DNA of 51,762 bases from Prochlorothrix hollandica PCC 9006 = CALU 1027 (GTDB lineage: Bacteria; Cyanobacteriota; Cyanobacteriia; Prochlorotrichales; Prochlorotrichaceae): NCBI RefSeq assembly GCF_000332315.1, contig NZ_KB235939.1:313028-364789 (forward strand). The letters are read 5' to 3'. Position 1 is the stretch's first letter. Each line of letters opens with the position of its first letter. The notes under the pieces are model-generated. The model was not told the origin of the DNA and made no database searches. It saw only the letters and a program-made list of their open reading frames with translations. Made by a program: the position numbers and the translations under genes. Shown piece by piece: positions 24,194-43,527 of this stretch.

Positions 24194-25666
24194 CTAAATA
24201 CTTTTGTTCCAGTATTCTAAACCAGTCAAAATTATCTCTTCTAGCCACTGCTTAAAACGCCCTACTAGATTCTCTTCTTCATCTGCGTAGGAAAATTGAA
24301 ATGGAGAATCAGCTAGGGTCTGAATATCGCTAATGTTGCGTTCACCCTCCTCAGCATCATCTCTATGATAAGCACAGGCAGTACACACAAGCAACCCTCG
24401 ATATTCATGTCCCAGAGCATGAAATGAAAGGAGAAGTGTTGTTGATGTTTCTACATTAATAACTAACTGAATCCAGGTATGATATTTCCGAAGATTGGCA
24501 AAGTAACCTAATTGTTTAGCTGTCTCCACAATTTGGTAGCGATGATAATAGGAGCGAGGATCGCCAACAGGAGCGGGAATCGTAAAAACCTGTGCATCAC
24601 TTACAAAGTTTTGAACAGATAGTCTAATTTCATCAGCAACATCCTGTAATCGGCTAGACGCTATATCAAATAAATTTGTAGCAAAACTTTCAGATTTCTT
24701 GCACCGCTCTTGAATAGATGCTGACTGGTTTTGTCTCAACTTATCAGCAATAGAAGAAATGATAACCTGAGTTCGTCGTGCCTCCGATAGAACTTGCTCT
24801 GATAGACCAAGGCTTCTCAGAAAAGCCTGTTTTTGACTTTTGGCAAAGAGGTTAACTAAGTCGGATAAATTACCTTGATCTGCTGCTTCTAGGGCTGCAA
24901 TATAAACTGCTCGATCATCGCGAGTGAGAACCAAAGGGAACCAGCTAGATTGAATGAAGACTAGACTAGCTAAACAACGAGCAACACGACCATTACCATC
25001 CTGAAATGGGTGAATTTGAGTGAACCGATGATGCAGCCATGCTGATTCGATTTCAGGAGGAACTTTTTGGTCGCTATGTTGATGATGTAGCGCAATTAAT
25101 GTATCCATCTCAGATGCAACTTGCTCAGGAGGACAGTACTCATGAACAGTGCCATCTTGTCTTAGGGGATTGTTAGGTTGACGTTTCCAGTCACCTTTGA
25201 TTAAGGAGACAGGGAATATCCTTTCTGTAAGTGGGTCTAGGGCTTCAGTGCTGTCCTGACTCTGAGTTAGGAGCTGATGTAACTGCTTTGTGTAAGAGTT
25301 TGATAGTGTTCTTTGTCCACCTACAAAATCGAATAATCCTTCAATTGCTGCTTCTTGATCCTTAATAAGTGAAACTACTTGCCTGATAGGGCGATCTGTT
25401 GCTCCATGAGGAATCAAGGCTTCATTGATTCCTTGTTCAATCAACAAACGAGTAATACCACGATCGATGGTGTACAAGCGCTCAATTATTCCAGTTTCAA
25501 TAGCTATTTCTCTGCGTAGCTTCTCATTGAAAGACTGAAACTCACCAGATTGACGTAAACGATCTGCCTGCTCGTTCCAAACCGTTACTAGAGGCGGCAA
25601 CTCAGAACTTGCTAGATCTTGCCAATTTGACGGTAAATCTTCTATCGGTTGCCACAATATAAACAT
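24194..25666 (-). CDS. Fic-family AMP-transferase-like protein (490 aa)
   Basis: Fic domains transfer AMP (or other phosphate-containing groups) from a nucleotide to hydroxyl side chains of target proteins. The active-site motif HPFQDGNGRVAR is intact at 219-230, with His219 the catalytic base. An N-terminal helical Fic_N-like region (about 1-115) precedes it. The C-terminal 200 residues include helices and a region with CTACAYHR that I cannot assign. It is the sole gene of an integron cassette (starting near 25804), with an attI-like module on each side. Many mobile Fic proteins are toxins, but this large form is often self-regulated; the role here is inference. Confidence 0.9.
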   Translation of the reverse strand: MFILWQPIEDLPSNWQDLASSELPPLVTVWNEQADRLRQSGEFQSFNEKLRREIAIETGIIERLYTIDRGITRLLIEQGINEALIPHGATDRPIRQVVSLIKDQEAAIEGLFDFVGGQRTLSNSYTKQLHQLLTQSQDSTEALDPLTERIFPVSLIKGDWKRQPNNPLRQDGTVHEYCPPEQVASEMDTLIALHHQHSDQKVPPEIESAWLHHRFTQIHPFQDGNGRVARCLASLVFIQSSWFPLVLTRDDRAVYIAALEAADQGNLSDLVNLFAKSQKQAFLRSLGLSEQVLSEARRTQVIISSIADKLRQNQSASIQERCKKSESFATNLFDIASSRLQDVADEIRLSVQNFVSDAQVFTIPAPVGDPRSYYHRYQIVETAKQLGYFANLRKYHTWIQLVINVETSTTLLLSFHALGHEYRGLLVCTACAYHRDDAEEGERNISDIQTLADSPFQFSYADEEENLVGRFKQWLEEIILTGLEYWNKSI

Positions 25667-26147: not shown

Positions 26148-26449
26148 TATCTAAGACGCTCTTCTAACCACCGTCGGAATGACTGTTGACTTTCTCCAGA
26201 TGGTTTTCCAAAAATCAAATTTTGGCTGCTAATATCTTCATCAAGGCTAGGCCAATGAATCCCTTCCCCACTACCAATTAAGCGCCATTGGTTGCGCTCT
26301 TCATTTGAACCATGCAAAAGTCGAGGATACCATGCCAATGGTACAGATATAGTGCGTCCATCGGCAAGGTCAGCAGAAAGCGTATCTGCTGTAACTAAAA
26401 CCCCTCGAATTTTGGGAATTTCCACCAACTCAACCGTTAAAGAAGTCAT
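26147..26449 (-). CDS. DUF2442 protein (100 aa)
   Basis: Family features: an early beta strand, then DGRTISVPLAWYPRL and WRLIGSGEGIHWPSLDEDIS, typical of DUF2442, which usually pairs with DUF4160. It overlaps the upstream DUF4160 gene by 20 bp. The pair is widely seen next to toxin-antitoxin loci, but its mechanism is not established. Stop and attC half-site nearly coincide, as in compact cassettes. Confidence 0.88.
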   Translation of the reverse strand: MTSLTVELVEIPKIRGVLVTADTLSADLADGRTISVPLAWYPRLLHGSNEERNQWRLIGSGEGIHWPSLDEDISSQNLIFGKPSGESQQSFRRWLEERLR

Positions 26450-26666
26450 GCCAACCTCTTAATAACTCTTCTTGATGTTCTTCAACTAGCGTTTGAATCC
26501 GATTAATCTCTGCGCGACTAAAACCTTTATTGCTTTGAATCCGAATTGGATCAAGCCAAAATTTAGCTTCATTTTCGTCACGTTCAATATGAACATGAGG
26601 TGGTTCGTCACGATCGCCTGCATAGCAAAAGAGACGATACGGGCCGGATCTCAATAGGGTTGGCAT
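26430..26666 (-). CDS. DUF4160 protein (78 aa)
   Basis: The family signature FCYAGDRDEPPHVHIERDE and the C-terminal EHQEELLRGWHDFF are clear. It is the first gene of the DUF4160-DUF2442 cassette, whose start junction is 115 bp upstream at 26782/26781. The pair is possibly toxin-antitoxin-like; this rests on family context only. Confidence 0.9.
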   Translation of the reverse strand: MPTLLRSGPYRLFCYAGDRDEPPHVHIERDENEAKFWLDPIRIQSNKGFSRAEINRIQTLVEEHQEELLRGWHDFFNG

Positions 26667-27442: not shown

Positions 27443-27805
27443 TTATGACAATGGCAAATATGAAATCCGATCTCTGTACTCATCATCCAGAGAAGCAAGA
27501 GCCGCTAATACTAATTCTTCAATAGTTTCACCCAGGCTCATACTAGGATTGATTTGGAAAATTCCAGGGATGTGCTGCCCTTGAGCGAGATGATCGATCA
27601 GATGGACGGGCATAGAGCTACGATTATTAGTTACCAGAATGAAGTCGTACTTTTCACACCAAATCAGGATGTCTGGATCTAAAGTGCCTTTTGGCGGTGT
27701 GTTGGGATCGCCAATTGCCCAGACTACTAAATCAGGTTCTTTGCGGCGTAACTGTATTTGATAAGTTGGAGGAAGATTTTCATCCATCAAATACTTGATT
27801 TGCAT
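27443..27805 (-). CDS. DUF5615 PIN-like protein (120 aa)
   Basis: The start IKYLMDENLPP carries the conserved early acidic residues (D9, E10) of this PIN-like family. Later DPDILIWCEKYDFILVTNN gives the second conserved Asp/Asn cluster. It is probably the toxin-like partner of the DUF433 protein, whose gene overlaps it by 26 bp. RNase activity is inferred from the fold family only. Confidence 0.88.
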   Translation of the reverse strand: MQIKYLMDENLPPTYQIQLRRKEPDLVVWAIGDPNTPPKGTLDPDILIWCEKYDFILVTNNRSSMPVHLIDHLAQGQHIPGIFQINPSMSLGETIEELVLAALASLDDEYRDRISYLPLS

Positions 27806-28919: not shown

Positions 28920-31499
28920 CTACTTTTTCCCTCTAACATATTTCATCTTTAAGGATGATTTGAAAAGGCGACCAACACGAAGCTGCCCTGGATAATCTGG
29001 ACGGTCTTCAAACATTCCTAAGTTTTTCATTCTCTCAATTGCAGTCCTAATATCTCTTTTATCTATATTTACTTTGGCAGTAAGTTCTGAGACACATTCA
29101 TCCAACTTAAATGGTGTCTTTAAACCTTCAAAAGCATCTAATAATGCTTTAATCTTTGCTTGATTTTCAGAAAAATCATCTGACAAGCTTACCAAATAAT
29201 TTAATTCAGACTGAAGTTGACTGAGGTATTCTCTAGCTGCTGCTTCATGAGCAATAAAGATAAGACTTTGACTGATCTTTCCTTTTCCTTCTTCAGTTTG
29301 AGATCCTTGGAAAGAGCCAACATCAGTTGGCTGAGGATCAGCGATTACTTGAAGAAATTTATCAAAAACTCGTGGATAGTATCTCAGTTTATCACTAGTG
29401 CTAATCTCAGGTCGGTCACTTGCGCTATCAGCAAAGTACGTTTTGAGAAATGTTTTTGTCGCAAGATTATTTCTGCGTATTTTTTCAGGAAAGGCTTTCA
29501 TCAAAAGGACTTCACATTCCTCAGTTGGTAAAGAACCTTTAAGAATATCAGCTCTATTTTCTTCTATATCTTCAATTAAGCTTGGGAACTGTTCCTTATA
29601 CCACTGAATTCGAGATATCCGCGACAAAATGAAGTTGAAGATTTTCTGTGTGTCCCAGCTTAAATATAGACTTTTACCATGAAGCTGTTGTTCAATGTTT
29701 TGGAAGCCTCGTCCTACTAAATCGCTTCTTATAAAAAGTTTAAGATGTATGTATTTAGATAGCCTAGAATCTGTTTCAACAGTTTGTATAAAACGGAAAA
29801 GGGCTTCAGTATAAGTAAAAATCAGCTTAGCGTTAAACGCTGTTTCAAGACCATCGATCAAAAAAGTGCGTTTAGATTTTCCCTCTATCTTTTCAAGAAT
29901 CCGCAAAATTGGGTCATCACTTGTAGGTTGCTCCATCTCCTGAGAAAACAACCTTCCTAGCTCATCAGTAGATGTTTCAGGTGCATCAATTGCAGCAGAT
30001 AGTAGATGCCACCATAATTTTTCAGGAGTGTCTTTATATAGGTCCGCTGCTCTTGTTAGTTCTGGACTAGGAGACTTTAATCCTTTATTATCTTTACTGT
30101 TTGAGTCAACTAACAGTGGTTCACCAACCCCAGCCTTTGAAAGCTCTCGAAGTAAGCGGGTTTTACCTGTTCCCTTACGCCCTAAAATATATGAAATTGA
30201 ATTATTATGAACACTGAGTTCTCGAAGAGCTTCTGTCTGAATTAAGTCACCTTCATCAGATGCACCACTTGGACTTAGTAATAAAGTATTTTCGGCACTA
30301 CTTTCAGTGATTTTATAGCTAACATTGAGAATACTACGAAGTTTGTTGAGTGATTCAATACTCAAACCAGATAACTGATTCTTCTCTGGTAATCTGCTCT
30401 GCCTGAAAGCGCTATCATACGACCAGACAATCCAATGATCTTCAAGCTCAACAGAAGAGATTTCTGCCTCTTCTTCAAAACTGTCTGAGATTTCAGCAGC
30501 TTCAGAGATTGCTTCAACAAGAATCTCTAACAGTGCATCAATCTGCGGATTATTCCGATGTCTATATGAATCTAAATTTTCATCATCTGGCTTCCATGAA
30601 ACAAAAACCCCAGGATTAGCAGAGTTAGTTCGGAGGACTGATTTTATAAAATGTTCAGCAGGTCGCCACTGTTCATCAAGACGAACACAAACAACTGTCG
30701 GACCAGGAAGTGTATTCATCCAAGGTAAGGGTACTGGTGAAAGTCCTGATCTATGATCGATTAATAGAGCGTCATATTTGTTCTCTATTGCAAATTCTAC
30801 AATCCGTTTAGCAGCATCCTCAATAATCATAGGTTCTAGAGCGCACCGAAGAGCAAATGCAGATGCATCAATATCAAATTCTGCTAGCTTAGGTCTACAA
30901 GCTAATAAATCTACATATCCACTTCCTTCAGGTGTCCTAACACGTTCAGGAATAATATCGGATGTAGATTGAATAACCCCTAAGAGAGTACTAGATAAAG
31001 TTCGAGAAGTTCGAGCGTAGATTATATCAAGAGAGGGAGCTTCAATATCACTATCAACTACAAGAACTTTCCATCCATCTTCTGCCAGAGTAGTTGATAG
31101 AAGTCCAAGAAGGGTTGAACGGGCTTGCCCACCCTTGTAGCCATAAAAGTGAATAACTTTAATTCTTGTAGACGGCTCTTCTGTAGAACTTATTTCTTTT
31201 AATTCCTGATCGATGAGAGCACTCAACCAATGGTGTCCTCGATTTTTATTGTTAGGATATTCTTCTAAAAATTCATCAGCAGTGAGTAAGCGTAATGAAA
31301 GTAAGGAATTGTGTAAGATTTTTCGTAGTTCTGCCACATTGATTTTGATTGAACGGCAGAAATCTAGTTCACGGTCATCTAGTTCTACCTCATTAAATCT
31401 AGAGGATATACATATTAGATGAACGTATGGAAATCGAAATACTGTTTTGATTTCACAAACTTTCTTTGCTGCTTTTAGCAGACGATGTGCATTCATCAT
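28920..31499 (-). CDS. Large conflict-type ATPase: ParA-like domain plus second P-loop domain and C-terminal helices (859 aa)
   Basis: Residues 1-100 are an unassigned N-terminal region. At 117-135 a deviant ParA/MinD-type P-loop appears (FYGYKGGQARSTLL), followed by VLVVDSDIEAPS (149-151 DSD) and LLIDHRSGL near 246. A second Walker A lies at 440-447 (GRKGTGKT), with a Walker B-like FLIDGLE about 100 residues later. The C-terminal 100 residues (ELTAKVNIDKRDIRTAIERMKNLG) look like a winged helix. The combination resembles proteins named KGGVGR-motif variant ATPases in databases, with a variant KGGQAR. The start overlaps the upstream HEPN-like gene (ATGA), so the two are co-translated. Probably a defence-type sensor NTPase; this is inference. 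Confidence 0.75.
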   Translation of the reverse strand: MMNAHRLLKAAKKVCEIKTVFRFPYVHLICISSRFNEVELDDRELDFCRSIKINVAELRKILHNSLLSLRLLTADEFLEEYPNNKNRGHHWLSALIDQELKEISSTEEPSTRIKVIHFYGYKGGQARSTLLGLLSTTLAEDGWKVLVVDSDIEAPSLDIIYARTSRTLSSTLLGVIQSTSDIIPERVRTPEGSGYVDLLACRPKLAEFDIDASAFALRCALEPMIIEDAAKRIVEFAIENKYDALLIDHRSGLSPVPLPWMNTLPGPTVVCVRLDEQWRPAEHFIKSVLRTNSANPGVFVSWKPDDENLDSYRHRNNPQIDALLEILVEAISEAAEISDSFEEEAEISSVELEDHWIVWSYDSAFRQSRLPEKNQLSGLSIESLNKLRSILNVSYKITESSAENTLLLSPSGASDEGDLIQTEALRELSVHNNSISYILGRKGTGKTRLLRELSKAGVGEPLLVDSNSKDNKGLKSPSPELTRAADLYKDTPEKLWWHLLSAAIDAPETSTDELGRLFSQEMEQPTSDDPILRILEKIEGKSKRTFLIDGLETAFNAKLIFTYTEALFRFIQTVETDSRLSKYIHLKLFIRSDLVGRGFQNIEQQLHGKSLYLSWDTQKIFNFILSRISRIQWYKEQFPSLIEDIEENRADILKGSLPTEECEVLLMKAFPEKIRRNNLATKTFLKTYFADSASDRPEISTSDKLRYYPRVFDKFLQVIADPQPTDVGSFQGSQTEEGKGKISQSLIFIAHEAAAREYLSQLQSELNYLVSLSDDFSENQAKIKALLDAFEGLKTPFKLDECVSELTAKVNIDKRDIRTAIERMKNLGMFEDRPDYPGQLRVGRLFKSSLKMKYVRGKK

Positions 31500-32348: not shown

Positions 32349-32723
32349 TTAGACATCAGGCACGAATGGTAAACGACGAATACGAATACGGCTTGGCTCA
32401 ACCGTAATGGCTGATCCTTGTTCTAAATCCTCCTCACATTCAGCAACTACCGTCAACAAAAGATCTGTGAGTGCCTGAGAACGTAACCTTTCAATCCGAA
32501 TGCGAATGACTGAAGGAGTGGCTGCTACATCGAGCGCCAGCAATGTATGAAAATCTGCATCAAGGGTAGCAACAATCCGCCCCTCGTCTCTAGCTCTCTG
32601 GATAATGTCTGCGTCTTCCGCTTCAGACATCCCTATTTCACCAACATGGATAGTGTCGATCCCAGCATCACGTAATAAAGTTGCCGCAGAAAGCGGTAGT
32701 CCCTGATCAAGCAACAGCTTCAT
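32349..32723 (-). CDS. DUF5615 PIN-like protein (124 aa)
   Basis: From the ATG at 32723 (MKLLLDQGLPLSAATLL), which overlaps the DUF433 gene; the frame opens further upstream, but that part is out of family. Conserved features: D6, EAEDADIIQRARDEGRIVATLDADFHTLL, SVIRIR. The stop sits within R'' of an attC remnant (GTCTAAC at 32348-32354). Probable PIN-like toxin of the pair. Confidence 0.88.
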   Translation of the reverse strand: MKLLLDQGLPLSAATLLRDAGIDTIHVGEIGMSEAEDADIIQRARDEGRIVATLDADFHTLLALDVAATPSVIRIRIERLRSQALTDLLLTVVAECEEDLEQGSAITVEPSRIRIRRLPFVPDV

Positions 32724-32949
32724 AGCGGTTAGGAAGTTCAATGATGCGATCGTCCAAGTAGGAAGAGGCAAAAATTAGGGCTTGTCGGATATCTTCATCC
32801 TCTAGTTCTGGAAACTCTTGATGTAATTCTTCCCGCTCAGCATAAGTTGCCAGTAGTTCAATCACCCGACGAACAGTAAGGCGAAGATTACGAATGCAGG
32901 GTTGCCCATTCATTCGTTTCGGATTGCTTGTAATACGATCTAGTTTCAT
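32707..32949 (-). CDS. DUF433 protein (80 aa), probable antitoxin partner
   Basis: Signature: ITSNPKRMNGQPCIRNLRLTV, then VIELLATYAEREELHQEFPEL and EDIRQALIFASSYLDDR, the typical DUF433 winged-helix pattern. It overlaps its DUF5615 partner by 17 bp. This is the second DUF433/DUF5615 cassette in the array, and it is diverged from the one at 27443-28133. Confidence 0.9.
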   Translation of the reverse strand: MKLDRITSNPKRMNGQPCIRNLRLTVRRVIELLATYAEREELHQEFPELEDEDIRQALIFASSYLDDRIIELPNRYEAVA

Positions 32950-33446: not shown

Positions 33447-33532
33447 GTCTAACGGTGAAGTTGTGCGGCTGCAGATAATCTTGAAAACCAACCGATAACC
33501 TCTGTACCGTCCGCACTAACGCAGTGTTAGCC
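33447..33532 (-). other. attC site closing the six-gene cassette (86 bp)
   Basis: Minus strand: R'' GGCTAAC (contains the TAA stop of the AAA+ gene), spacer, L'' TTAGTGCGG, central region, L' CCGCACAA, spacer CTTCACC, R' G|TTAGAC. L''/L' pair well. R'' complements, in six of seven positions, the G|TTAACC that starts this cassette at 42015/42014. This is the best-formed attC in the window. Confidence 0.85.
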
Positions 33533-35530
33533 TGCATTAATTTCTGGGACAAGAGAGCCATCTTGATTTAACCCTACGGATAAGATCCGGCATGAAAGCA
33601 TATCACTGTCAGGAAACTCTTGAAAAAGCCAACTATTTAGGGGCTTCTCAATAAAAGTTTCCAGTAACGATTTTATACGTCGTCCTCCAAGAATTAAGTT
33701 TCTTTCTTCTTTCATCCGAAGCGATATTACTTCTAAAACAGAAGGCATAAACTTAATAAAAAGCTTGTATTTTTCTTTTGTAATTTCAGAGTATTGTTGG
33801 AGAAACTTATCAGCAATCGCATTAATAAAATCCTCTCGCAGTAGATCGAAGACAATAATGTTGTCTCCTAATCTTCCTAGTAACTCTGCTCGACCAATAT
33901 AATTGCTAAAATACCACCGTACTTCTTGATCAAAATGTTGCTCTACCTCTGAGTAAGAAGGCATATTTTCTTCTTGAACTTGTTTCATAATACCAGATCG
34001 AATTGTCTCACCTGTGTGATGGTTAGTCAGATCTGATGCACCAATGTTGCTTGTGAAAATAATCACTGTTTGGTTGAAATAAACTGTTTGACCTTTACCA
34101 TCTGTTAGTCTACCATCGCTCAGGATTTGTAAAAATTTATCCATAACTTTTGGTGTAGCTTTCTCAATTTCATCGAAAAGAAGAATGCTGTATGGCTGCT
34201 CTAATACGCGATTAGTGAGTTGCCCACCTGCTTCAAATCCTACAAATCCTGGTGGCGCACCAGTAAGTTTTTCAGCAGCATGTTCTTGTGCATACTCACT
34301 CATATCAAAACGAATTAAAGAGTTTTCATCAACAAACAAGAGCCTTGCTAGGGCTTTCGCTAATTCAGTCTTGCCAACACCAGTAGGACCAACAAAGAAA
34401 AAGATACCTTTGGGTTGAGCTGATGACTTTCCACCACTCATGCTTAAGCCAATCCTGGCACTTGCTAGCATTGATGTAACAGCTTCCACAGCCTTTGGCT
34501 GCCCAATAACGGATCGAGACAACTCTTCCTTCGCAGAGGCGATTCTTTCAGGACTAATTTTTTCCCAGGGATCATCTCGTCTGCCAAACTTGTAAAAATC
34601 AACTAACTGTCTTACATTCTTTTCTCTTAATGGGATCTCATCTCGCCATGAGATGCTTCTTAAAGCTTCTAAATCTACTGTATGAAATCCTTCTGTCAGG
34701 TCAGCTAATTCATCAGCTAGTGCCTCTAGCTGCGAAGGAACATTATTAGCGGGCCTCTTGATACTAATTTTATCACCTTCAAAAAATCCGCTAAAGCCTT
34801 CACGAGGACGTAAAGATCTCAACGCAAACTGACGACGTTCATCTTTATTTAAAGACGAGACTTGAATCATTTCAACTAGTGGATTGTCCTTGTAGACCCA
34901 CTGAGGAATTCTCGCTAGATCGCTTGCCACTAGAATTAAACTATTTCTATAACCAGCCAAAGTACCTTCTGTTAGAAATGCCGATTCGAGTGTACACATT
35001 TTGAGCAGCATCAAAAGATTGCGCTCTTCAACACCATATTGGTTAGGATCGGAGGTAAGCATATCTACAGTATCAACGATTGCCGCTACTGAAGTCACGC
35101 TTTGAGACATAGCCATTCTCAAGTTACCAAAAGCGGCTTCTGGCAGAATTCTGATATTTGTATTTTGCCTTGTATTTATCCCTGGACTCCGGCGAGGTGG
35201 GGGAGCCATAGGATTAGCAGTCGTTTCCGGTACAGGTGCTTCGTCGGCTGGCGATTGTGCATGATAACTGAGGGATTGATCTTGGATAAGAGCATTGAAT
35301 CGCTCTCTCATGGAATCTGCTAAATAGCTAAACCCATTAACAGGACTGTAACGAATGATTAGATCAAAACCCAGTTCTTTTAAAGAACTATTGATAATCT
35401 TATAGACAGTTTGTCGTTCATCTCTCCACAGAAACTCATCATGAATATTGCCATACAAAATAATGTGTTTACGGCAATGAATTTGCTTTTCAAGCTCAGT
35501 TAGCCAGCGAAAATAGATGGTGTTACTCAT
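33527..35530 (-). CDS. ClpB/ClpA-type AAA+ ATPase with degenerate N-terminal domain (667 aa)
   Basis: The C-terminal half is a Clp D2-like AAA+ module: VIGQPKAVEAV at 341-351, Walker A GPTGVGKT 381-388, RFDMSEY, pore loop GAPPGFVGFEAGG 424-436, Walker B LLFDEIEKA 450-458 and sensor 1 FTSN. A C-terminal small domain follows. The first 240 residues look like a divergent NTPase domain lacking a Walker A (HIILYGNIHDEFL; later AAIVDTVDML). A proline-rich linker lies at 93-118. Disaggregases of this type thread proteins through a hexamer. Last gene of the Hsp70/vWA operon; it starts 1 bp from the upstream stop. Confidence 0.92.
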   Translation of the reverse strand: MSNTIYFRWLTELEKQIHCRKHIILYGNIHDEFLWRDERQTVYKIINSSLKELGFDLIIRYSPVNGFSYLADSMRERFNALIQDQSLSYHAQSPADEAPVPETTANPMAPPPRRSPGINTRQNTNIRILPEAAFGNLRMAMSQSVTSVAAIVDTVDMLTSDPNQYGVEERNLLMLLKMCTLESAFLTEGTLAGYRNSLILVASDLARIPQWVYKDNPLVEMIQVSSLNKDERRQFALRSLRPREGFSGFFEGDKISIKRPANNVPSQLEALADELADLTEGFHTVDLEALRSISWRDEIPLREKNVRQLVDFYKFGRRDDPWEKISPERIASAKEELSRSVIGQPKAVEAVTSMLASARIGLSMSGGKSSAQPKGIFFFVGPTGVGKTELAKALARLLFVDENSLIRFDMSEYAQEHAAEKLTGAPPGFVGFEAGGQLTNRVLEQPYSILLFDEIEKATPKVMDKFLQILSDGRLTDGKGQTVYFNQTVIIFTSNIGASDLTNHHTGETIRSGIMKQVQEENMPSYSEVEQHFDQEVRWYFSNYIGRAELLGRLGDNIIVFDLLREDFINAIADKFLQQYSEITKEKYKLFIKFMPSVLEVISLRMKEERNLILGGRRIKSLLETFIEKPLNSWLFQEFPDSDMLSCRILSVGLNQDGSLVPEINAG

Positions 35531-36813
35531 TAGCTTCCTCCTCTTGACTGTTTCGCATCTGTTGATAAATCTGTAGCTGTTCGAGTAATACGATTCGGAT
35601 CTTTACCTTGCCATGAAATTTCACCCATCTGAATGCCAAATTCCTGTTGCAAGGCGGTATGCATTTCGGTTAGTACTGCTTCTGCTTCATCGCAAATTGC
35701 TACTGGACTACCATCTGCAATGGATGAAACGGTGTTTTTGGAGTAGCCATCGACATCGTACCAAACTTGCCCTTCTACAGGGACGTTAACACTAATTGCT
35801 CGACCTGCTGCGGTAGCCGTGAAAACTTTAGCTGTGGAGGGGTGTCCTTTGTGTTCATCCTCAATGGAGAGGACTGCAAAACCCATATCTTGCAAGGTAG
35901 CAACAATAGATTGGGTAATATAGTCACGCTTATCTGCTTTTAGCTGGGCGATGTTTGCCTCTTCAATTATTTGCTTTTCTTGTGCTTGGATTTTTGCCAA
36001 GATCTGGCTTGGTTGATCAAACTGTTCCGAGGCAATGGCTTGCTGGGCTTGTTTCAGTTGATTTTCAAGTTGTGCCATTGTGTGAGAATGCCAAAGCATA
36101 ACTATAGGATCAGCTTTAAGACCTGTCACTAGATCTTGAATTTGTCCAACTATCTGCTCTGCTTCGGCTTTGCGTTTTTCCCACTCGGCTCGGCGTTGAC
36201 TAACTGCCTGAGTGTGTTGTTTGACCACTGTACTTGCATGGTTGATGGGAGCTTGCACAGTTTGAGGACTTCCTGAAGCCAAGGCTGATCGTACAGCACC
36301 CAAAGCCTCCTGGACTGAACTTTGACCTGTAGCATCAAATTTACTGGCATCACTTGCGGGAATACGTCCTACTCCTCGTTCTAGTTCTTCAAGTTCAAAT
36401 TGCAGTCGCTCAATTTCTGCTTTGCGCTTTTTCTCTTCATCATCGCGCCGTTTGCGGGTAACAGCTTTGTCGCAATCCTGCAAAATCTGGTTGAGTTCAG
36501 TTGCCACATTTTGCAGTCGTGATTCATCTTGAGCTTGACAAATGGTATTAATTTGATTTTGGCAACGCTGTTGTAAAGCCGTAACATCTTGGGGATACAT
36601 GGACGATTGCTGTTGCTGAATTTTACTGGCAACAGATTGCTGTTGAGAGTTAACTCTATTTCTCAAGTTTTCTAGACGTTGACGACGCTCTCGTTCTGCG
36701 GCTTCTGCTCTGAGCCTTGCTTCCTCAGCAGCTTTGCGCCGACGTTCTTCTTCTAGTTGCTGTTGTCTCTGTCGCTCTAACTCTGCTGGTGAATATTTGG
36801 GTGTGCCACTCAT
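35530..36813 (-). CDS. Coiled-coil protein of the Hsp70/AAA+ operon (427 aa)
   Basis: Residues 1-60 are a highly charged helix (RQQQLEEERRRKAAEEA), and coiled coil continues in stretches to about 310. A compact C-terminal domain (about 315-405; DYITQSIVATLQDMGFAVLS, VNVPVEGQVWYDVDGY) is mixed alpha/beta and unrecognised. It may be a scaffold or adaptor linking the AAA+ ring to the Hsp70. Its stop and the next gene's start are adjacent, so the two are translationally linked. Confidence 0.75.
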   Translation of the reverse strand: MSGTPKYSPAELERQRQQQLEEERRRKAAEEARLRAEAAERERRQRLENLRNRVNSQQQSVASKIQQQQSSMYPQDVTALQQRCQNQINTICQAQDESRLQNVATELNQILQDCDKAVTRKRRDDEEKKRKAEIERLQFELEELERGVGRIPASDASKFDATGQSSVQEALGAVRSALASGSPQTVQAPINHASTVVKQHTQAVSQRRAEWEKRKAEAEQIVGQIQDLVTGLKADPIVMLWHSHTMAQLENQLKQAQQAIASEQFDQPSQILAKIQAQEKQIIEEANIAQLKADKRDYITQSIVATLQDMGFAVLSIEDEHKGHPSTAKVFTATAAGRAISVNVPVEGQVWYDVDGYSKNTVSSIADGSPVAICDEAEAVLTEMHTALQQEFGIQMGEISWQGKDPNRITRTATDLSTDAKQSRGGS

Positions 36814-36836: not shown

Positions 36837-37472
36837 TTATTGTGGGTTAACAATTACGGAGCGCTGAGACATTTGAGATTCAAATTCTCGTCGAAAATTT
36901 GGCTGGGCGGGAACTCCTGAAAAACCAACTTCTCCAGTCTCATTCAAGAAAAATTCTAGCCCTGCTGATCGATCACTTTGAGATTGTAAGAAATCTCGAT
37001 ATCGATCGCTTAAGAGCAACAGCCTTTGATTGTTAGAACCCCTCCAGAGTAAATCATCTTGTAGGTTTTCTTGGTACATACCTTCAACTAAAAGATCGAT
37101 TTTTGTTAATAAAAGTTTTTGGGCAATATCACCTTGAGATTTCAAGTATTCAATACGATAGCCTGTGTAGCACATAACACCAAGATCTCTAACTTCTCTA
37201 ATTTGATCAATTAAAGTAGATAAAGCTTCGGCTTGCAACATGGGTTCGCCGCCCGACAAAGTAACGCCCTCAATATTGGATTGACTGAGTACCCAAGCGA
37301 CAAGCTCAGAAATATCCACCTCTTCGCCAGAATCTCGATCCCATGATTCGGGTACGATGCAGCCCTTGCAACCAAAATCGCAGCCTTGCACCCAGATAAC
37401 TGCTCTGGCATAGGGACCAAGTACTTTAACTGGAGAACGACGTTCGAAAACCCTGAGCTTACTGGGCTTCAT
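36837..37472 (-). CDS. Radical SAM protein, activase-like (211 aa)
   Basis: Radical SAM enzymes bind a 4Fe-4S cluster through CxxxCxxC and cleave S-adenosylmethionine to make a radical. The motif is at 31-38 (CDFGCKGC) and GGE lies at 74-76 (TLSGGEPM). Size and layout match NrdG/PflA-type activating enzymes, which install glycyl radicals. No glycyl-radical partner is in the window. The ATG at 37472 follows AGGAGGGGAAG and overlaps the upstream stop by 14 bp. Its place in a chaperone-like operon suggests it modifies a partner protein; this is inference. Confidence 0.9.
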   Translation of the reverse strand: MKPSKLRVFERRSPVKVLGPYARAVIWVQGCDFGCKGCIVPESWDRDSGEEVDISELVAWVLSQSNIEGVTLSGGEPMLQAEALSTLIDQIREVRDLGVMCYTGYRIEYLKSQGDIAQKLLLTKIDLLVEGMYQENLQDDLLWRGSNNQRLLLLSDRYRDFLQSQSDRSAGLEFFLNETGEVGFSGVPAQPNFRREFESQMSQRSVIVNPQ

Positions 37473-39339
37473 CTTCCCCTCCTGTGCTTTCCATTGGCGG
37501 CAAATCACTGGGAGGTTCTCCTTCAATATGAAAAGCAGGTAGCCAGTAATCTTGTTGTCCTGCGAGTTTATACCACCTGTTGTCTAGTTCCTGGTTCGGG
37601 GAAATTGTCTCTTTCCAAGGTTCACCAAAAATCCATCCCTCAAAATCTAGTTCTGCGTTATAGCTTGCCTGTAAACCAGCTTTAGCTTCTTTCCGGGGAG
37701 AATAACGAAACGCTAGTCCTGCTCTGCACGTTACTTTGCCCTTGAAAGTCCCGAAAGATTTTTCTGGTTCGCTAGGTGCTGGATTTTCACCACTTGATTC
37801 TGAATGGTCTTCAGACCCTGAAGATAAAGGTGAAGGTGATTCGCTTTGTCCGGAGGGTAACTCAGATGTATTTTCAGTTTCTTCGACTTTGGAAGCATCA
37901 CCTCCGGGATGTTGAGGTTCCTGTGTCCCACCTTCTGGAATCTGTGGGTTGTCGAGTTGAGGATCTGAACCTTGCGGTTCGGTTGGTGACGTAGGCTCAG
38001 GCTCATGGGTCATAACATCAGCCTTGACCAATATAGTCCCCTTAATGCGATAGCCAGCACAAATGGTCATCTTAATTAGACCTTGATGATCATCTCTTGT
38101 GTCGTGGGCATTGTCGTCAAAGGTAGTTCCATTCTCTGGGATAAACAATTCTCCTGAGTTGGTATCATTTACAATATCTCGAACAATCTTTAAGCCTTTT
38201 CTAACAAATTCTTTGATTTCAGGTAAGGCTTCGTCTGTTGTTTCGAGGTTGGCAATTGATTTCAAGTCTTGAGCAATACGTTGAGTTGTTTCCTCAACAT
38301 ACTGCTCAATTGCTTCATCGGAGTGGTCTACACCCTTAGCACGAAGTAACTCAACTTGGACTTTCTCTTGAATTTCTTGGAAGATAGCTGGTGTAGGACT
38401 AAAATCCTTGATATCTGAGAGTGCATCCATAATCAGATGCAACTCAGTATCAACTTCAGTTTTATCTTGAGCAAAATAAGCCATGCCATCACCAAAAACT
38501 CGCCGAGATAAGATCGACTTAATGGTAAAGAATTCTTCGGACTTGAAATCACTGCTAGCTTTAGATTTGAAGCCTTGAGACTTCCAACCATTCAACACTA
38601 TAGAACTTACTTCATGAAGTGTTGGTTTGATGTGGGAAAATTCACTTTTGAGTTGATCGGAACGAGATCCGCCTCCACCAAGTTCAGAGTGGGTGTTAAG
38701 ACCCCGTAAGCGCATTGTCGCCAAAGAAAGTTTTTGTTCTGTTTCCTGAAGTTCTTGCTCAATCTCTTGAACCCGCCGATCTGAATTCTGCTTTAATTTT
38801 TCCAGCTTGTCCTTATCCGTTTTCAATAGATCAATATGGTTTGCCAATTCGTCCAATGTACGAAACCGAGGAAACAGGTGATCCCAGCTTGCCGAGATTT
38901 TTCTATATTCATCGGCATCCTTATAAGATGTGGCATATTGACTGTTTCGGTTTCTCTCGTTAGTTAGCTCAGAAGAAAGGCGGTGATTATCATCACGCAA
39001 GTTCCGTAGTTCGGTGTTAGCTCTAGATTCAGAAAGTTGGATGACTTGATCTTCTAGGTGTTGCTTGGCAGATTTAAGATCACTATTTTCTGACAATAGC
39101 CGTTGACATTCTTCCTTAAGTTGCTCTTCACTAAGGTTGGAGATGTCTTGAGTCTTTGACTCTTCAGGAAATAGAGAGAGAAATTTTTTCAGAAAAACTA
39201 CAGTACCTGCTTTTCCGTAACTTTCAACCAACGGATCTAATATGTCTCTTCGTTCAGAATTAAATCGGAGAGTGTGAATAGGGCTGTAGAGTTGATACTC
39301 ACATCTAAATACAATTTCAAATTCAAATCGGTGCGCCAT
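37459..39339 (-). CDS. Coiled-coil protein with GrpE-head-like and SH3-like regions (626 aa)
   Basis: The N-terminal 50 residues are unassigned. Coiled coil runs from about 65 to 225. Residues about 335-455 look like GrpE: long helices and then a small beta region with FIPENGTTFDDNAHD, ICAGYRIKGTILVKADV, comparable to GrpE's FDP..H and GYRL...A.V pattern. A P/S/E-rich linker follows (455-540). The C-terminal 85 residues (CRAGLAFRYSP, WYKLAGQQDYWLPAF) resemble a bacterial SH3 domain. GrpE is the nucleotide-exchange factor of Hsp70, and the adjacent upstream gene encodes an Hsp70-like ATPase, which supports the reading. Remote homology; needs structure-based confirmation. Confidence 0.65.
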   Translation of the reverse strand: MAHRFEFEIVFRCEYQLYSPIHTLRFNSERRDILDPLVESYGKAGTVVFLKKFLSLFPEESKTQDISNLSEEQLKEECQRLLSENSDLKSAKQHLEDQVIQLSESRANTELRNLRDDNHRLSSELTNERNRNSQYATSYKDADEYRKISASWDHLFPRFRTLDELANHIDLLKTDKDKLEKLKQNSDRRVQEIEQELQETEQKLSLATMRLRGLNTHSELGGGGSRSDQLKSEFSHIKPTLHEVSSIVLNGWKSQGFKSKASSDFKSEEFFTIKSILSRRVFGDGMAYFAQDKTEVDTELHLIMDALSDIKDFSPTPAIFQEIQEKVQVELLRAKGVDHSDEAIEQYVEETTQRIAQDLKSIANLETTDEALPEIKEFVRKGLKIVRDIVNDTNSGELFIPENGTTFDDNAHDTRDDHQGLIKMTICAGYRIKGTILVKADVMTHEPEPTSPTEPQGSDPQLDNPQIPEGGTQEPQHPGGDASKVEETENTSELPSGQSESPSPLSSGSEDHSESSGENPAPSEPEKSFGTFKGKVTCRAGLAFRYSPRKEAKAGLQASYNAELDFEGWIFGEPWKETISPNQELDNRWYKLAGQQDYWLPAFHIEGEPPSDLPPMESTGGEDEAQ

Positions 39340-39359: not shown

Positions 39360-41144
39360 TTAATAACTAGAAGAAAATCGGAATTCGCAGCGTTCTCGAT
39401 TGCCGCTTATCGGATCGATCGCATAAGCAATAATCTGTGATTGACCAAATTGCATTTCTATATTCATCGGTTTAGGTGAACCATCTGGTGATGCAAATGG
39501 AAATCTTATATCCACCTGAGAAAGCTCGGTTATCTCATCTTTTTCGAGGTTTGTGTAACGAACCTTAGGATTAATTGTTGAAAGAAACTTTACGGTAAGC
39601 TCTGTCGCATTAGGAGGAATAATATAGCTACGAGTTACAGACGCATTACTTGGAATTCGCTCACCCGTAGCGACGAATATGTCAAATCTATTTGTACAAC
39701 CATCCAGCGAAAAGTCAGTTCCAAAAATCCTACTTCTCTCTCGTGCAGATATACGTTGACCATGTTCGTGATCTAGCCGTTCATCGAAGTCCATCATAGT
39801 TTTGGTGCCATAGGTCAGCGTTGATCTCCGAGCAATCACAACTCCTGGGTTTACCCCAAAAGAAGCCGCACCTTGAAGCACCGCTGCACCCGGACGATCT
39901 GGAATGATGACCTGCTCTACTCTGTCACCAAACTCATCCCGGATTCGCTGCTTGAGTACAGGCGACTCCGCAAAGCCACCTACCAAAAAGAGAATATCGC
40001 AACGCCGATCTTCAAGGGCAGTAAATTGATTTCTGACCTTACCAATAAGTTGATCAACTACAGACTTAAAGATTGCCTCCATGTCATCATGGATCAGTCG
40101 AATAACCGTATTGTCCCCCCCCTGAACATTCGCTAATCGATCTAGAACTTCAGGGAAACTTGTTTCCAGAATCTTCTCCAAGCGGCGAGGCATTTCAATC
40201 GATGATCGCCAATTCGGAACTGCGTCATAGCTGCACTTGATATTTTCCCAGGTCTCGCTCATCAGCTTGGCATATTCCACAGGCCACTGGGTTTCAAATT
40301 CATCCATTGCCTCGGCACACAGCTTACGAGCCAGAAACTCCCGAAAATTTCGGTCTACATACTTAGAACCATGCAATCCACCTCCACAAGGCACTAACTC
40401 ATCTAATCCCTCTCCCAATCTAACTTCATGTACGGTAATATCTACCGTACCCCCGCCCGCATCAACAATCATGATGACCTTACCAGATTCCAAGGCAACT
40501 TGGTTTTGCCGCATCATTACCTGCTGACAATGCACCGCTGCCGCCTCTGGTTCCAAAACCAAAAGTAACCGTTCTGCCTCTTGTGTTCCTTCACCAATCA
40601 AGCCTGCTAACTGAGCCGCATGACGCATAATCTGCTTGCTGTCCTCCCGCCACACCGCAGGCACAGTCAAACACCAGCGAATCTCATTCTCATCTAATAA
40701 ACCTTCACCGCCCAGGGTTTCCGCGATATCACTAAGGGCGACCTCTTTAATGCGTTGAAGAAATTCAGCGATTAATTTCACTACTGGAAACTTCTTACCA
40801 TCACGCATGATAAAGGGACCATCCTGATCCCGATCCTTACCATCATGAAGTAGTGTCTTGAAATTCTCGATCAGAATATACCCCTTTTCTGAGGCTTCCT
40901 CTCGCAGTTGAGTAAACCGCTTCCTTGCAGTGTGCCCCCATGCCTCAACCGATCCATCAGGACGGAATAAAATTTCTGTTGGGGTTTTTGGGTAAAACTC
41001 ATTGGTATCAGGCCATCTGTTGCGAAAGATTGGATCTTTCGCACCCTCATCCTCAAAGAACTGATAAGCATAGCCCGATCGCGCTGTACCAAAGTCGATT
41101 GCAATAGAAATTCGATAATTTCTACCTCTAAAAGCTAAAATCAT
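39360..41144 (-). CDS. Hsp70-like ATPase (594 aa)
   Basis: Actin/Hsp70-fold ATPase: phosphate-1 loop IAIDFGTARSGYAY at 14-27, phosphate-2 MIVDAGGGTVDITVHE near 225-240, and adenosine motif LFLVGGFAESPVL near 385. The region after about 430 lacks a canonical DnaK substrate domain and lid. The pattern DFGTxxSGYA and the insert style recall HSPA12-type Hsp70s more than DnaK. It starts 42 bp after the vWA stop. Probably the ATPase core of the operon's machine, with the 626-aa protein as exchange factor. Confidence 0.92.
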   Translation of the reverse strand: MILAFRGRNYRISIAIDFGTARSGYAYQFFEDEGAKDPIFRNRWPDTNEFYPKTPTEILFRPDGSVEAWGHTARKRFTQLREEASEKGYILIENFKTLLHDGKDRDQDGPFIMRDGKKFPVVKLIAEFLQRIKEVALSDIAETLGGEGLLDENEIRWCLTVPAVWREDSKQIMRHAAQLAGLIGEGTQEAERLLLVLEPEAAAVHCQQVMMRQNQVALESGKVIMIVDAGGGTVDITVHEVRLGEGLDELVPCGGGLHGSKYVDRNFREFLARKLCAEAMDEFETQWPVEYAKLMSETWENIKCSYDAVPNWRSSIEMPRRLEKILETSFPEVLDRLANVQGGDNTVIRLIHDDMEAIFKSVVDQLIGKVRNQFTALEDRRCDILFLVGGFAESPVLKQRIRDEFGDRVEQVIIPDRPGAAVLQGAASFGVNPGVVIARRSTLTYGTKTMMDFDERLDHEHGQRISARERSRIFGTDFSLDGCTNRFDIFVATGERIPSNASVTRSYIIPPNATELTVKFLSTINPKVRYTNLEKDEITELSQVDIRFPFASPDGSPKPMNIEMQFGQSQIIAYAIDPISGNRERCEFRFSSSY

Positions 41145-41186: not shown

Positions 41187-41795
41187 TCAGTCATCTAGGG
41201 CAGCATTAAGCAGACCAATAACCCCAATTTCCTCTAGCTCCTCCATAGACTTGGTATCAACAATATCAAATTTAGCCTTGCCTATGAGTTCATCATCTAG
41301 ATGGGCAAGAAAGTCCGAAGCCCCCTTATCATACCCAACTTGAACAAACGATATACCGAGATCCTCGTCTTTCTCAATACTGTTAGCTGCATTGACAATG
41401 ACTTTCTCTAGTGCATCTTGATCATTGGGCTTGCCATCCGTAAAAACAATGATGATCATCGGTTTTGCTGTACCGACTCTACGCCCCTGGAACCATTCAG
41501 GAGTTAATATTGCTTGTAATGCTGCATCTGTTGCAGTATTTCCAATCGGTTCTACTTGGTCATAAATGTCTTGAATTTTGGCAGGGGTGGTGTTTTCATA
41601 TACCTTCACTTGGCTACCAAACACAACGACTGTAATCCCATCTGAGTCAAGTTTATTGGCACGGGCTGCTACAGCCTCAACGTTCTCACGGGCATAGTCC
41701 CAGCGAGATTTGCTGTTGGGGCAATCTTCAATGACCATAGAGCCAGAACGGTCTAGCAAGATAGCAATGTCATAGCTTTTAAGGCGATCGCTCAT
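41187..41795 (-). CDS. vWA-domain protein, TerY-like (202 aa)
   Basis: One von Willebrand A domain with an intact metal site (MIDAS): DRSGSM at 15-20, Thr in GNTATDAAL and Asp in VFTDGKPND. vWA proteins of this size act as binding or regulatory adaptors in bacterial conflict and tellurite-type systems. First gene of the six-gene operon, preceded by AGGAG; it begins about 220 bp after the start of its cassette. Confidence 0.92.
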   Translation of the reverse strand: MSDRLKSYDIAILLDRSGSMVIEDCPNSKSRWDYARENVEAVAARANKLDSDGITVVVFGSQVKVYENTTPAKIQDIYDQVEPIGNTATDAALQAILTPEWFQGRRVGTAKPMIIIVFTDGKPNDQDALEKVIVNAANSIEKDEDLGISFVQVGYDKGASDFLAHLDDELIGKAKFDIVDTKSMEELEEIGVIGLLNAALDD

Positions 41796-42546: not shown

Positions 42547-43527
42547 ATGGAGCCATTACTGTCCACCTCTGCTCAACAAAAACTGCTGGATCAAGTGCGC
42601 GATGTGATTCGGCTCAAACGCTACAGCCACAAAACCGAACAAAGTTATGTGGCTTGGGTTCAGCGTTACATTCTGTTCCACAACAAACGCCAGCCCCAGG
42701 AAATGGGAACCGAAGAAGTTGAAGCCTTCCTCACCCACCTGGCCGTGACCGAAAACGTTGCCGCCTCCACCCAAAACCAAGCCCGCAGTGCCTTAATCTT
42801 TCTCTATCGCCATGTTTTGCAGCAACCCTTAACCGAAAACATTGAAGCCATTCGAGCCAAGCGCTCTAAAGATTTACCCACCGTCCTGACCATAGCCGAA
42901 GTCAAGGCCGTACTGGGAGCCATGACCGGAACACCTCAGTTGATAGCAGAACTGCTGTATGGAACGGGGATGCGCTTGAATGAAGGTCTCCAGATCCGCG
43001 TCAAGGATGTGGATTTTGGTCAGCAGCAAATTACTGTGCGAGATGCCCAGGGGAACCAGGATCGGGTAACTGTCTTACCCCAGCGCATTGTTGAACGACT
43101 CCAAGCCCATTTGGTCTTGATCAAGCATCAGCACCAACAAGATTTAGATCAGGGCTACGGTCAGGTTTATTTGCCCTATGCCTTGGAGCGAAAATATGCC
43201 AACGCCGATCGAGATTGGATTTGGCAATATGTTTTTACCGCCAGCAATCGCTCTGAGGATCCCCAAAGCGGTATCGTTCACCGTCATCACCTTGACCCCA
43301 GCATTATTCAAAAAGCCATCAAAGTCGCCGTTCGCCAAGTTGGTATTGCCAAGAAAGCAAGCTGCCATACCCTACGCCACAGCTTTGCCACCCATCTTTT
43401 GGAAAATGGCTACGATATTCGCACGGTTCAAGAACTACTGGGCCATAAGGATGTGAAAACCACCATGGTTTATACCCATGTTGTCAATCGTAATGGATTG
43501 GGAGTGCGCAGCCCTCTTGACCTTTGA
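42547..43527 (+). CDS. Integron integrase IntI (326 aa)
   Basis: A tyrosine recombinase with all catalytic residues visible: Arg in [20 protein letters not shown], the GH of [10 protein letters not shown] and the Tyr in MVYTHV. It carries the extra insert that defines IntI among tyrosine recombinases ([19 protein letters not shown], then DWIWQYVF), before the HRHHLDPS segment. N-terminal SAM-like domain at about 10-95. Length matches the family. IntI recombines attI with folded single-stranded attC hairpins. It reads away from the array, the standard arrangement. Appears intact. Confidence 0.97.

Follow-up and report, generated by a model that had tools for sequence, protein, structure and literature searches.

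A GrpE-like head in a coiled-coil protein encoded beside an Hsp70-like gene of Prochlorothrix hollandica

Does an Hsp70-like protein from a small bacterial operon have a nucleotide exchange factor of its own? GrpE inserts its beta domain like a wedge in the DnaK nucleotide cleft and rotates subdomain IIB; a 2015 review gave one known type of exchange factor in bacteria, with one GrpE per genome, and described the Hsp70s HscA and HscC as functioning without GrpE (PMC4753570). Here, we focused on a stretch of 51,762 nucleotides of Prochlorothrix hollandica PCC 9006 (contig NZ_KB235939.1, positions 313,028 to 364,789), referred to as the window. An earlier note on this DNA had proposed that one of its ORFs encodes a GrpE-like exchange factor dedicated to the adjoining Hsp70. 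The ORF, which carries the motif FDDNAHD, is present as described, and the Hsp70-like gene lies directly upstream on the same strand. It encodes 626 aa, has an ATG start and a GGGAGG ribosome-binding-like stretch, and begins 20 bp downstream of the Hsp70-like gene. Both belong to a tight operon of six genes on the minus strand, which encodes, in order, a vWA protein, the Hsp70, the 626-aa protein, a radical-SAM protein, a coiled-coil protein and a ClpB-like AAA+ protein (Table 1). The radical-SAM gene starts with the ATG at 37472 behind AGGAGGGG and overlaps the 626-aa gene by 14 bp.

Table 1. Positions in the window of the operon genes and of the regions of the 626-aa protein
Feature	Position (strand)	Basis
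626-aa protein under study: coiled coil, helical region, GrpE-like head, linker and SH3-like domain	37459..39339 (-)	ORF; L008 ortholog
Coiled-coil region, about aa 70-217	38689..39132 (-)	Weak coiled-coil matches (SMC, JIP_LZII, DUF4164); heptad-rich sequence
Conserved helical region, aa 222-395	38155..38676 (-)	Predicted helical; kept in cyanobacterial relatives
GrpE-like beta head, aa 396-444 (GELFIPENG..FDDNAHD..GYRIKGTILVKADVMT)	38008..38154 (-)	hhalign to cyanobacterial GrpE; whole-genome search
Low-complexity P/S/E-rich linker, aa 445-529	37753..38007 (-)	Sequence; poorly conserved in L008 ortholog
SH3-like C-terminal domain, aa 530-610	37510..37752 (-)	Matches at aa 517-616 in other cyanobacterial proteins
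Hsp70-like protein, 594 aa, candidate partner	39360..41144 (-)	Pfam HSP70 E 2.4e-11; ATPase motifs kept
vWA-domain protein, first gene of the operon	41187..41795 (-)	Pfam VWA_2 2.1e-12, vWA-TerF-like 1.2e-7
Radical-SAM/4Fe-4S protein	36837..37472 (-)	Pfam Fer4_12 8.8e-32
Coiled-coil protein with conserved C-terminal region	35530..36813 (-)	Orthologs in L008 and L009, remote match in L076
AAA+ protein akin to ClpB D2 (second ATPase domain); N-terminal region of its own	33527..35530 (-)	Pfam AAA_2 1e-48

All six operon genes were also found, in identical order, in an Oscillatoriales metagenome-assembled genome (L008). The L008 ortholog of the 626-aa protein (L008:11786-13741) is 48% identical overall and 63% identical over aa 222-449, so the best-conserved part is the region that contains the proposed head. 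Within this head, FDDNAHD occupies aa 407-413 and GYRIKGT..VKADV aa 429-442. Scans of the 626-aa protein with Pfam, PADLOC and NCBIfam returned nothing beyond coiled-coil noise, and a tblastn search against plasmids gave no match.

The putative partner is a recognisable member of the actin-like ATPases, scoring 43 bits with Pfam HSP70 against a cut-off of 20.6. Residues D17, G19, T20, K96, E198 and D228-GGGT, the expected nucleotide-binding positions, are invariant in 12 relatives. The profile of these 12 had DnaK chain 1dkg_D, from the GrpE-DnaK complex, as its best solved relative (2.1e-18). The last 35 residues line up with DnaK 471-505 in a non-significant alignment. From this alignment and the length of the protein, it seems that the alpha-helical lid is missing and that the protein ends near the end of the beta substrate-binding domain. 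The protein presumably also bears a likeness to HSPA12. Scans of viral contigs with three Hsp70 alignments found no relative; in the alignment of the head family, conservation is too low throughout to support such a scan.

Relatives of the 626-aa protein were gathered via copies of the same Hsp70 type, after which the adjoining gene was read. This Hsp70 type is rare, occurring in 2 of 291 genomes of the class (E below 1e-40) and in 5 of 217 genomes of one family. Cyanobacterial relatives behind the Hsp70 were found, in addition to the window and L008, at L056, L064, L075, L076, L077, L078 and L079. The head protein adjoins the Hsp70 at each of these loci except L076, where the head gene is broken into two pieces parted by a stop. 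The sequence at L081 is gapped and has no readable head, and at L080 the Hsp70 is truncated and fused to an N-terminal extension, with the head protein absent. The L056 copy (G519:C127) has an internal duplication in its Hsp70 gene and a stop in its head gene, and is therefore decaying or misassembled. Streptomyces plasmids with this Hsp70 encode a small head protein in eight of eight cases; these are short proteins of 236-244 aa with the most altered heads. In all, an Hsp70 gene directly followed by a head-protein gene is seen at about nine loci in cyanobacteria and on eight plasmids of Streptomyces. In most relatives the head is C-terminal or nearly so and keeps the order G/S..F....H[EQ]A ... 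I ... PGY.V....KA.V.T, as exemplified by FNPERHQAVTGCESGGKILYTTYPGYCVNNRIIGDALKAYVYT in L078 and FKSDRHEAMLGCEEGGKILLTIYPGYLVGDRVFEKALVFT in L077.

Adjacency of this kind could also link a chaperone to its client or substrate adaptor, with the Hsp70 remodelling the coiled-coil protein. The long coiled coil and the low-complexity linker fit such a client, as do the AAA+ and vWA proteins of the operon, which are parts of remodelling machines. However, this would leave the GrpE-like head in every complete family member unexplained, and we regard it as very improbable.

Next, we compared the head with GrpE itself. The Pfam GrpE model (PF01025; curated cut-off 25.8 bits) did not match the 626-aa protein, which for this reason is not to be filed under PF01025. 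Two relatives gave scores below the threshold: 17.1 bits for the L008 ortholog, where the match lies over the coiled coil, and 16.7 bits for the L078 relative, where it spans helices and head. A profile made from canonical cyanobacterial GrpE sequences was then compared with the family by hhalign, with 100 column shuffles as controls. The window protein and its L008 ortholog scored 24.7 (shuffle maximum 20.6). The score was 36.7 with L056 included (maximum 21.1), 41.6 for four cyanobacterial sequences (19.9), 50.7 for all cyanobacterial members (19.9) and 57.2 for a family of 13 sequences (E 4.5e-8; shuffle maximum 18.8, reversed control 17.3). In the alignments that include the window protein, FDDNAHD is in register with FDPNLHEA of GrpE, and GYRI with its GY motif. 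The likeness to the GrpE head in order and spacing, which the earlier note had read by motif, therefore goes beyond chance in this profile-profile check, both for the pair (24.7 vs 20.6) and for the family (57.2 vs 18.8). The window and L008 proteins align with the other cyanobacterial members over 209 columns (9.5e-14, profile-profile). The Streptomyces proteins alone did no better against GrpE than shuffles, 9 of 100 of which reached the observed score; they are tied to the family via its cyanobacterial members (3.7e-6) and by gene order.

A whole-genome search pointed in the same direction. With a profile of 12 family sequences, 20 cyanobacterial genomes yielded five matches at E up to 1 besides the gene of the window itself. 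Two of the five lie inside canonical GrpE genes and cover the head alone (G005:C1:1670891-1671031, the top match, and G017:C1:462684-462827). With E-values as weak as 0.09 and 0.16 per genome, what counts as evidence is how these two rank and that neither extends beyond the head. The beta-head pattern F-[DN]-P-x-x-H ... G-Y ... A-x-V is found in the family both by hhalign with shuffles and by this ranking. A head that resembles GrpE by chance or convergence, in a coiled-coil partner of Hsp70 unrelated to GrpE, would agree with the absence of a Pfam match, with a fold that was not confidently predicted (see below) and with the Streptomyces subset not rising above shuffles when taken alone. Nevertheless, such a coincidence is improbable, given that the alignment is in register at E 4.5e-8, that shuffled and reversed controls score far lower, and that canonical GrpE heads rank near the top of the whole-genome search. 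We take aa 396-444 to be a highly divergent GrpE-type head that is distantly homologous to that of GrpE. Judged by these sequence comparisons, the family is a small set of Hsp70-linked proteins with GrpE-like heads overlooked by Pfam.

The structure predictions bear on the helices more than on the head. AlphaFold2 with two sequences predicted helices over aa 222-395 when aa 222-449 were modelled, with pLDDT mostly 50-89, whereas the head had a pLDDT of about 30. Modelling aa 345-445 in the same way gave a head with pLDDT 31-39 and strands at plausible places. Of the paired-helix and beta-head fold that the earlier note had expected, the models show predicted helices, with the head staying at a pLDDT of about 30-40. 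Foldseek searches with both models gave no significant match; among 35 non-significant matches were the GrpE chains 8gb3_E (E 4.6) and 9a81_A (E 8.3), which are at most compatible with a GrpE-type fold. When the profile of the head family was compared with solved structures, coiled-coil, designed helical and other unrelated chains were found, and GrpE was absent. By eye, the helical region of the L077 protein reads as a repeated helix pair. In terms of the original proposal of GrpE-like helices plus head, the beta head aligns well with GrpE, but aa 222-395 are longer than the GrpE helical domain and different from it.

The C-terminus of the 626-aa protein, proposed to be an SH3-type domain, has no direct match to the Pfam SH3 family PF08239 (cut-off 27 bits). 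A domain in L004 that is homologous to aa 530-610 matches Pfam SH3_3 with E 9.1e-5 and 23 bits, below the 27-bit cut-off, and an alignment of aa 530-610 with homologous domains keeps the pattern. As the L004 homolog stays below the threshold, we call the C-terminus SH3-like and do not file it as a PF08239 member. Within the family, this end is found in the window and L008 only, whereas L064, L075 and L079 have another extension and the L077 protein stops directly after the head. We rejected the view that an SH3-like domain characterises the family as a whole, since other members do not have it; on present alignments it is an add-on of the window/L008 branch.

Heads of the GrpE type were also observed away from Hsp70. 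Four loci (L044, L045, L046 and L047, in G018, G016, G014 and G019) encode proteins of ~245-303 aa with a helix-turn-helix-like N-terminus and a GrpE-type head (motifs YDP/FDP..HQ..., GYR/GFR and L.RA.VS), and no Hsp70 motif was found in the flanks examined. This suggests that the head is usable in other proteins, and the GrpE head has possibly been reused in regulators. As GrpE-type heads occur in such proteins without an Hsp70 motif, a head alone is no proof of exchange activity.

These proteins bear on the main rival explanation, according to which the head descends from GrpE but serves as a scaffold, tethering the Hsp70 ATPase domain to the operon proteins via the coiled coil and the C-terminus without nucleotide exchange. 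The long coiled coil and the changeable C-termini (SH3-like in two members, the other extension in L064, L075 and L079) would suit a tether, and several canonical head residues are lost, for example the R of the RHA/RPA motif. Against this, strict pairing with an Hsp70 that has intact ATPase motifs is what is expected of an exchange factor. We consider the scaffold the less likely explanation, although a good deal less remote than coincidence.

On balance, the 626-aa protein is probably, by analogy with GrpE, a dedicated cochaperone of the neighbouring Hsp70 that uses its GrpE-type head for nucleotide exchange. The head would open the nucleotide cleft of the Hsp70, entering its ATPase domain at subdomain IIB, and make ADP leave faster, while the coiled coil and the helical region would form an elongated, probably dimeric stalk. 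In the window/L008 branch, the SH3-like end could anchor the pair to a target or to a further component of the operon. The entire operon might then act as an NTP-driven chaperone-like switch, plausibly in conflict or stress, a role that is a reasonable guess. The comparisons themselves show that the head is distantly homologous to that of GrpE, that the gene order is conserved and that the Hsp70 has its ATPase motifs; for the 626-aa protein, we infer dimerisation, binding, exchange, the docking role and the biological purpose. If the pairing is functional, specialised Hsp70s in conflict-like operons own private exchange factors with swappable docking domains.

How does this pair relate to known systems? 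Like GrpE (PF01025), the 626-aa protein has the head motifs in the same order and spacing, carries the head after helices and is encoded with an Hsp70. Unlike GrpE, it is undetectable by Pfam, has a longer helical region and has gained a linker and an SH3-like domain; its partner, moreover, differs from a canonical DnaK. The exchange factors of eukaryotes, those with a BAG domain among them, are similarly modular, with extra domains that send Hsp70 to particular tasks (PMC4753570), but their folds are unrelated and the comparison is one of design only. The closest published arrangement is that of the DO-GTPase conflict systems (GAP1-N2), some of which include HSP70 and GrpE (Kaur et al. 2020; PMC7159879). 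They resemble the present, plausibly conflict-related operon in that an Hsp70 and a GrpE of their own are part of an NTP-driven conflict system, whereas the head found here is not recognised by the Pfam GrpE model, and Pfam found no DO-GTPase or GAP1 domain among the operon's proteins. CoCoNuT systems, with the Hsp70-like CnuD and a TerY-like vWA protein (PMC11090510), likewise bring together, within a single operon of predicted defence function, an Hsp70 that is divergent, a vWA protein and coiled-coil proteins; however, a McrB/McrC match is absent from this operon. The term GrpE does not appear in the main text of the CoCoNuT paper (PMC11090510). As HSP70 and GrpE pairs have already been published in related conflict systems, what is new here is a variant with a head missed by Pfam, rather than a new kind of system.

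More broadly, it is conceivable, though we hold it only tentatively, that bacteria have an overlooked class of dedicated, modular exchange factors of the GrpE type that drive multi-component machines of AAA+, vWA and radical-SAM proteins. Each of these factors would be paired with a specialised Hsp70 that has no lid, and would bring a stalk and a docking domain of its own. If so, the textbook view that a bacterium has a single exchange factor would be contradicted. The host genome itself has a standard GrpE, further GrpE-type genes detectable by Pfam and the 626-aa gene that standard annotation missed; besides the gene in the window, four GrpE-type genes score above the Pfam cut-off (G000:C4:127469, C5:221015, C7:90861 and C1:837422). 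At another locus (L043, G006:C5:39818-40276), a divergent GrpE that is recognised by Pfam directly precedes a different Hsp70-like gene (a 462-residue open segment), which, from gene order and sequence, is another candidate private GrpE/Hsp70 pair.

The remaining operon genes occur in other combinations. On the Geminocystis plasmid pGM01 (L009), the AAA+/coiled-coil/radical-SAM trio lies beside DO-GTPases that replace the vWA, Hsp70 and GrpE-like genes, an arrangement that suggests swappable modules on one core. The Hsp70 is accompanied by a related radical-SAM gene in L076, L077, L079 and L081, and in L077 and L079 also by an AAA+ protein. AAA+ and radical-SAM genes are found together on plasmids of Acinetobacter, Photobacterium, Leisingera, Polaromonas, Moellerella, Rhizobium and Aristaeella, where their companions are large AAA-domain and PIN-domain genes, or kinase, FHA and phosphatase genes. 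On proteobacterial plasmids (L010 and L012-L015), genes for a large AAA-domain, a PIN-domain and a hypothetical protein are followed by the AAA+/radical-SAM pair; this five-gene unit may be an unnamed defence system. On a further proteobacterial plasmid (L016), the pair is followed by a large AAA-domain protein. In the window, an 859-aa protein is encoded downstream of the operon on the same strand (28920-31499), with a KGGVGR-type ParA-like domain and a Sll1717-family ATPase-related region, both below the cut-offs. The operon is flanked by a DUF5615/DUF433 pair, a second DUF5615, DUF4160 and Fic-domain genes and a tyrosine integrase (32349-32949, 27443-27805, 26430-26666, 24194-25666 and 42547-43527), as in a mobile defence island.
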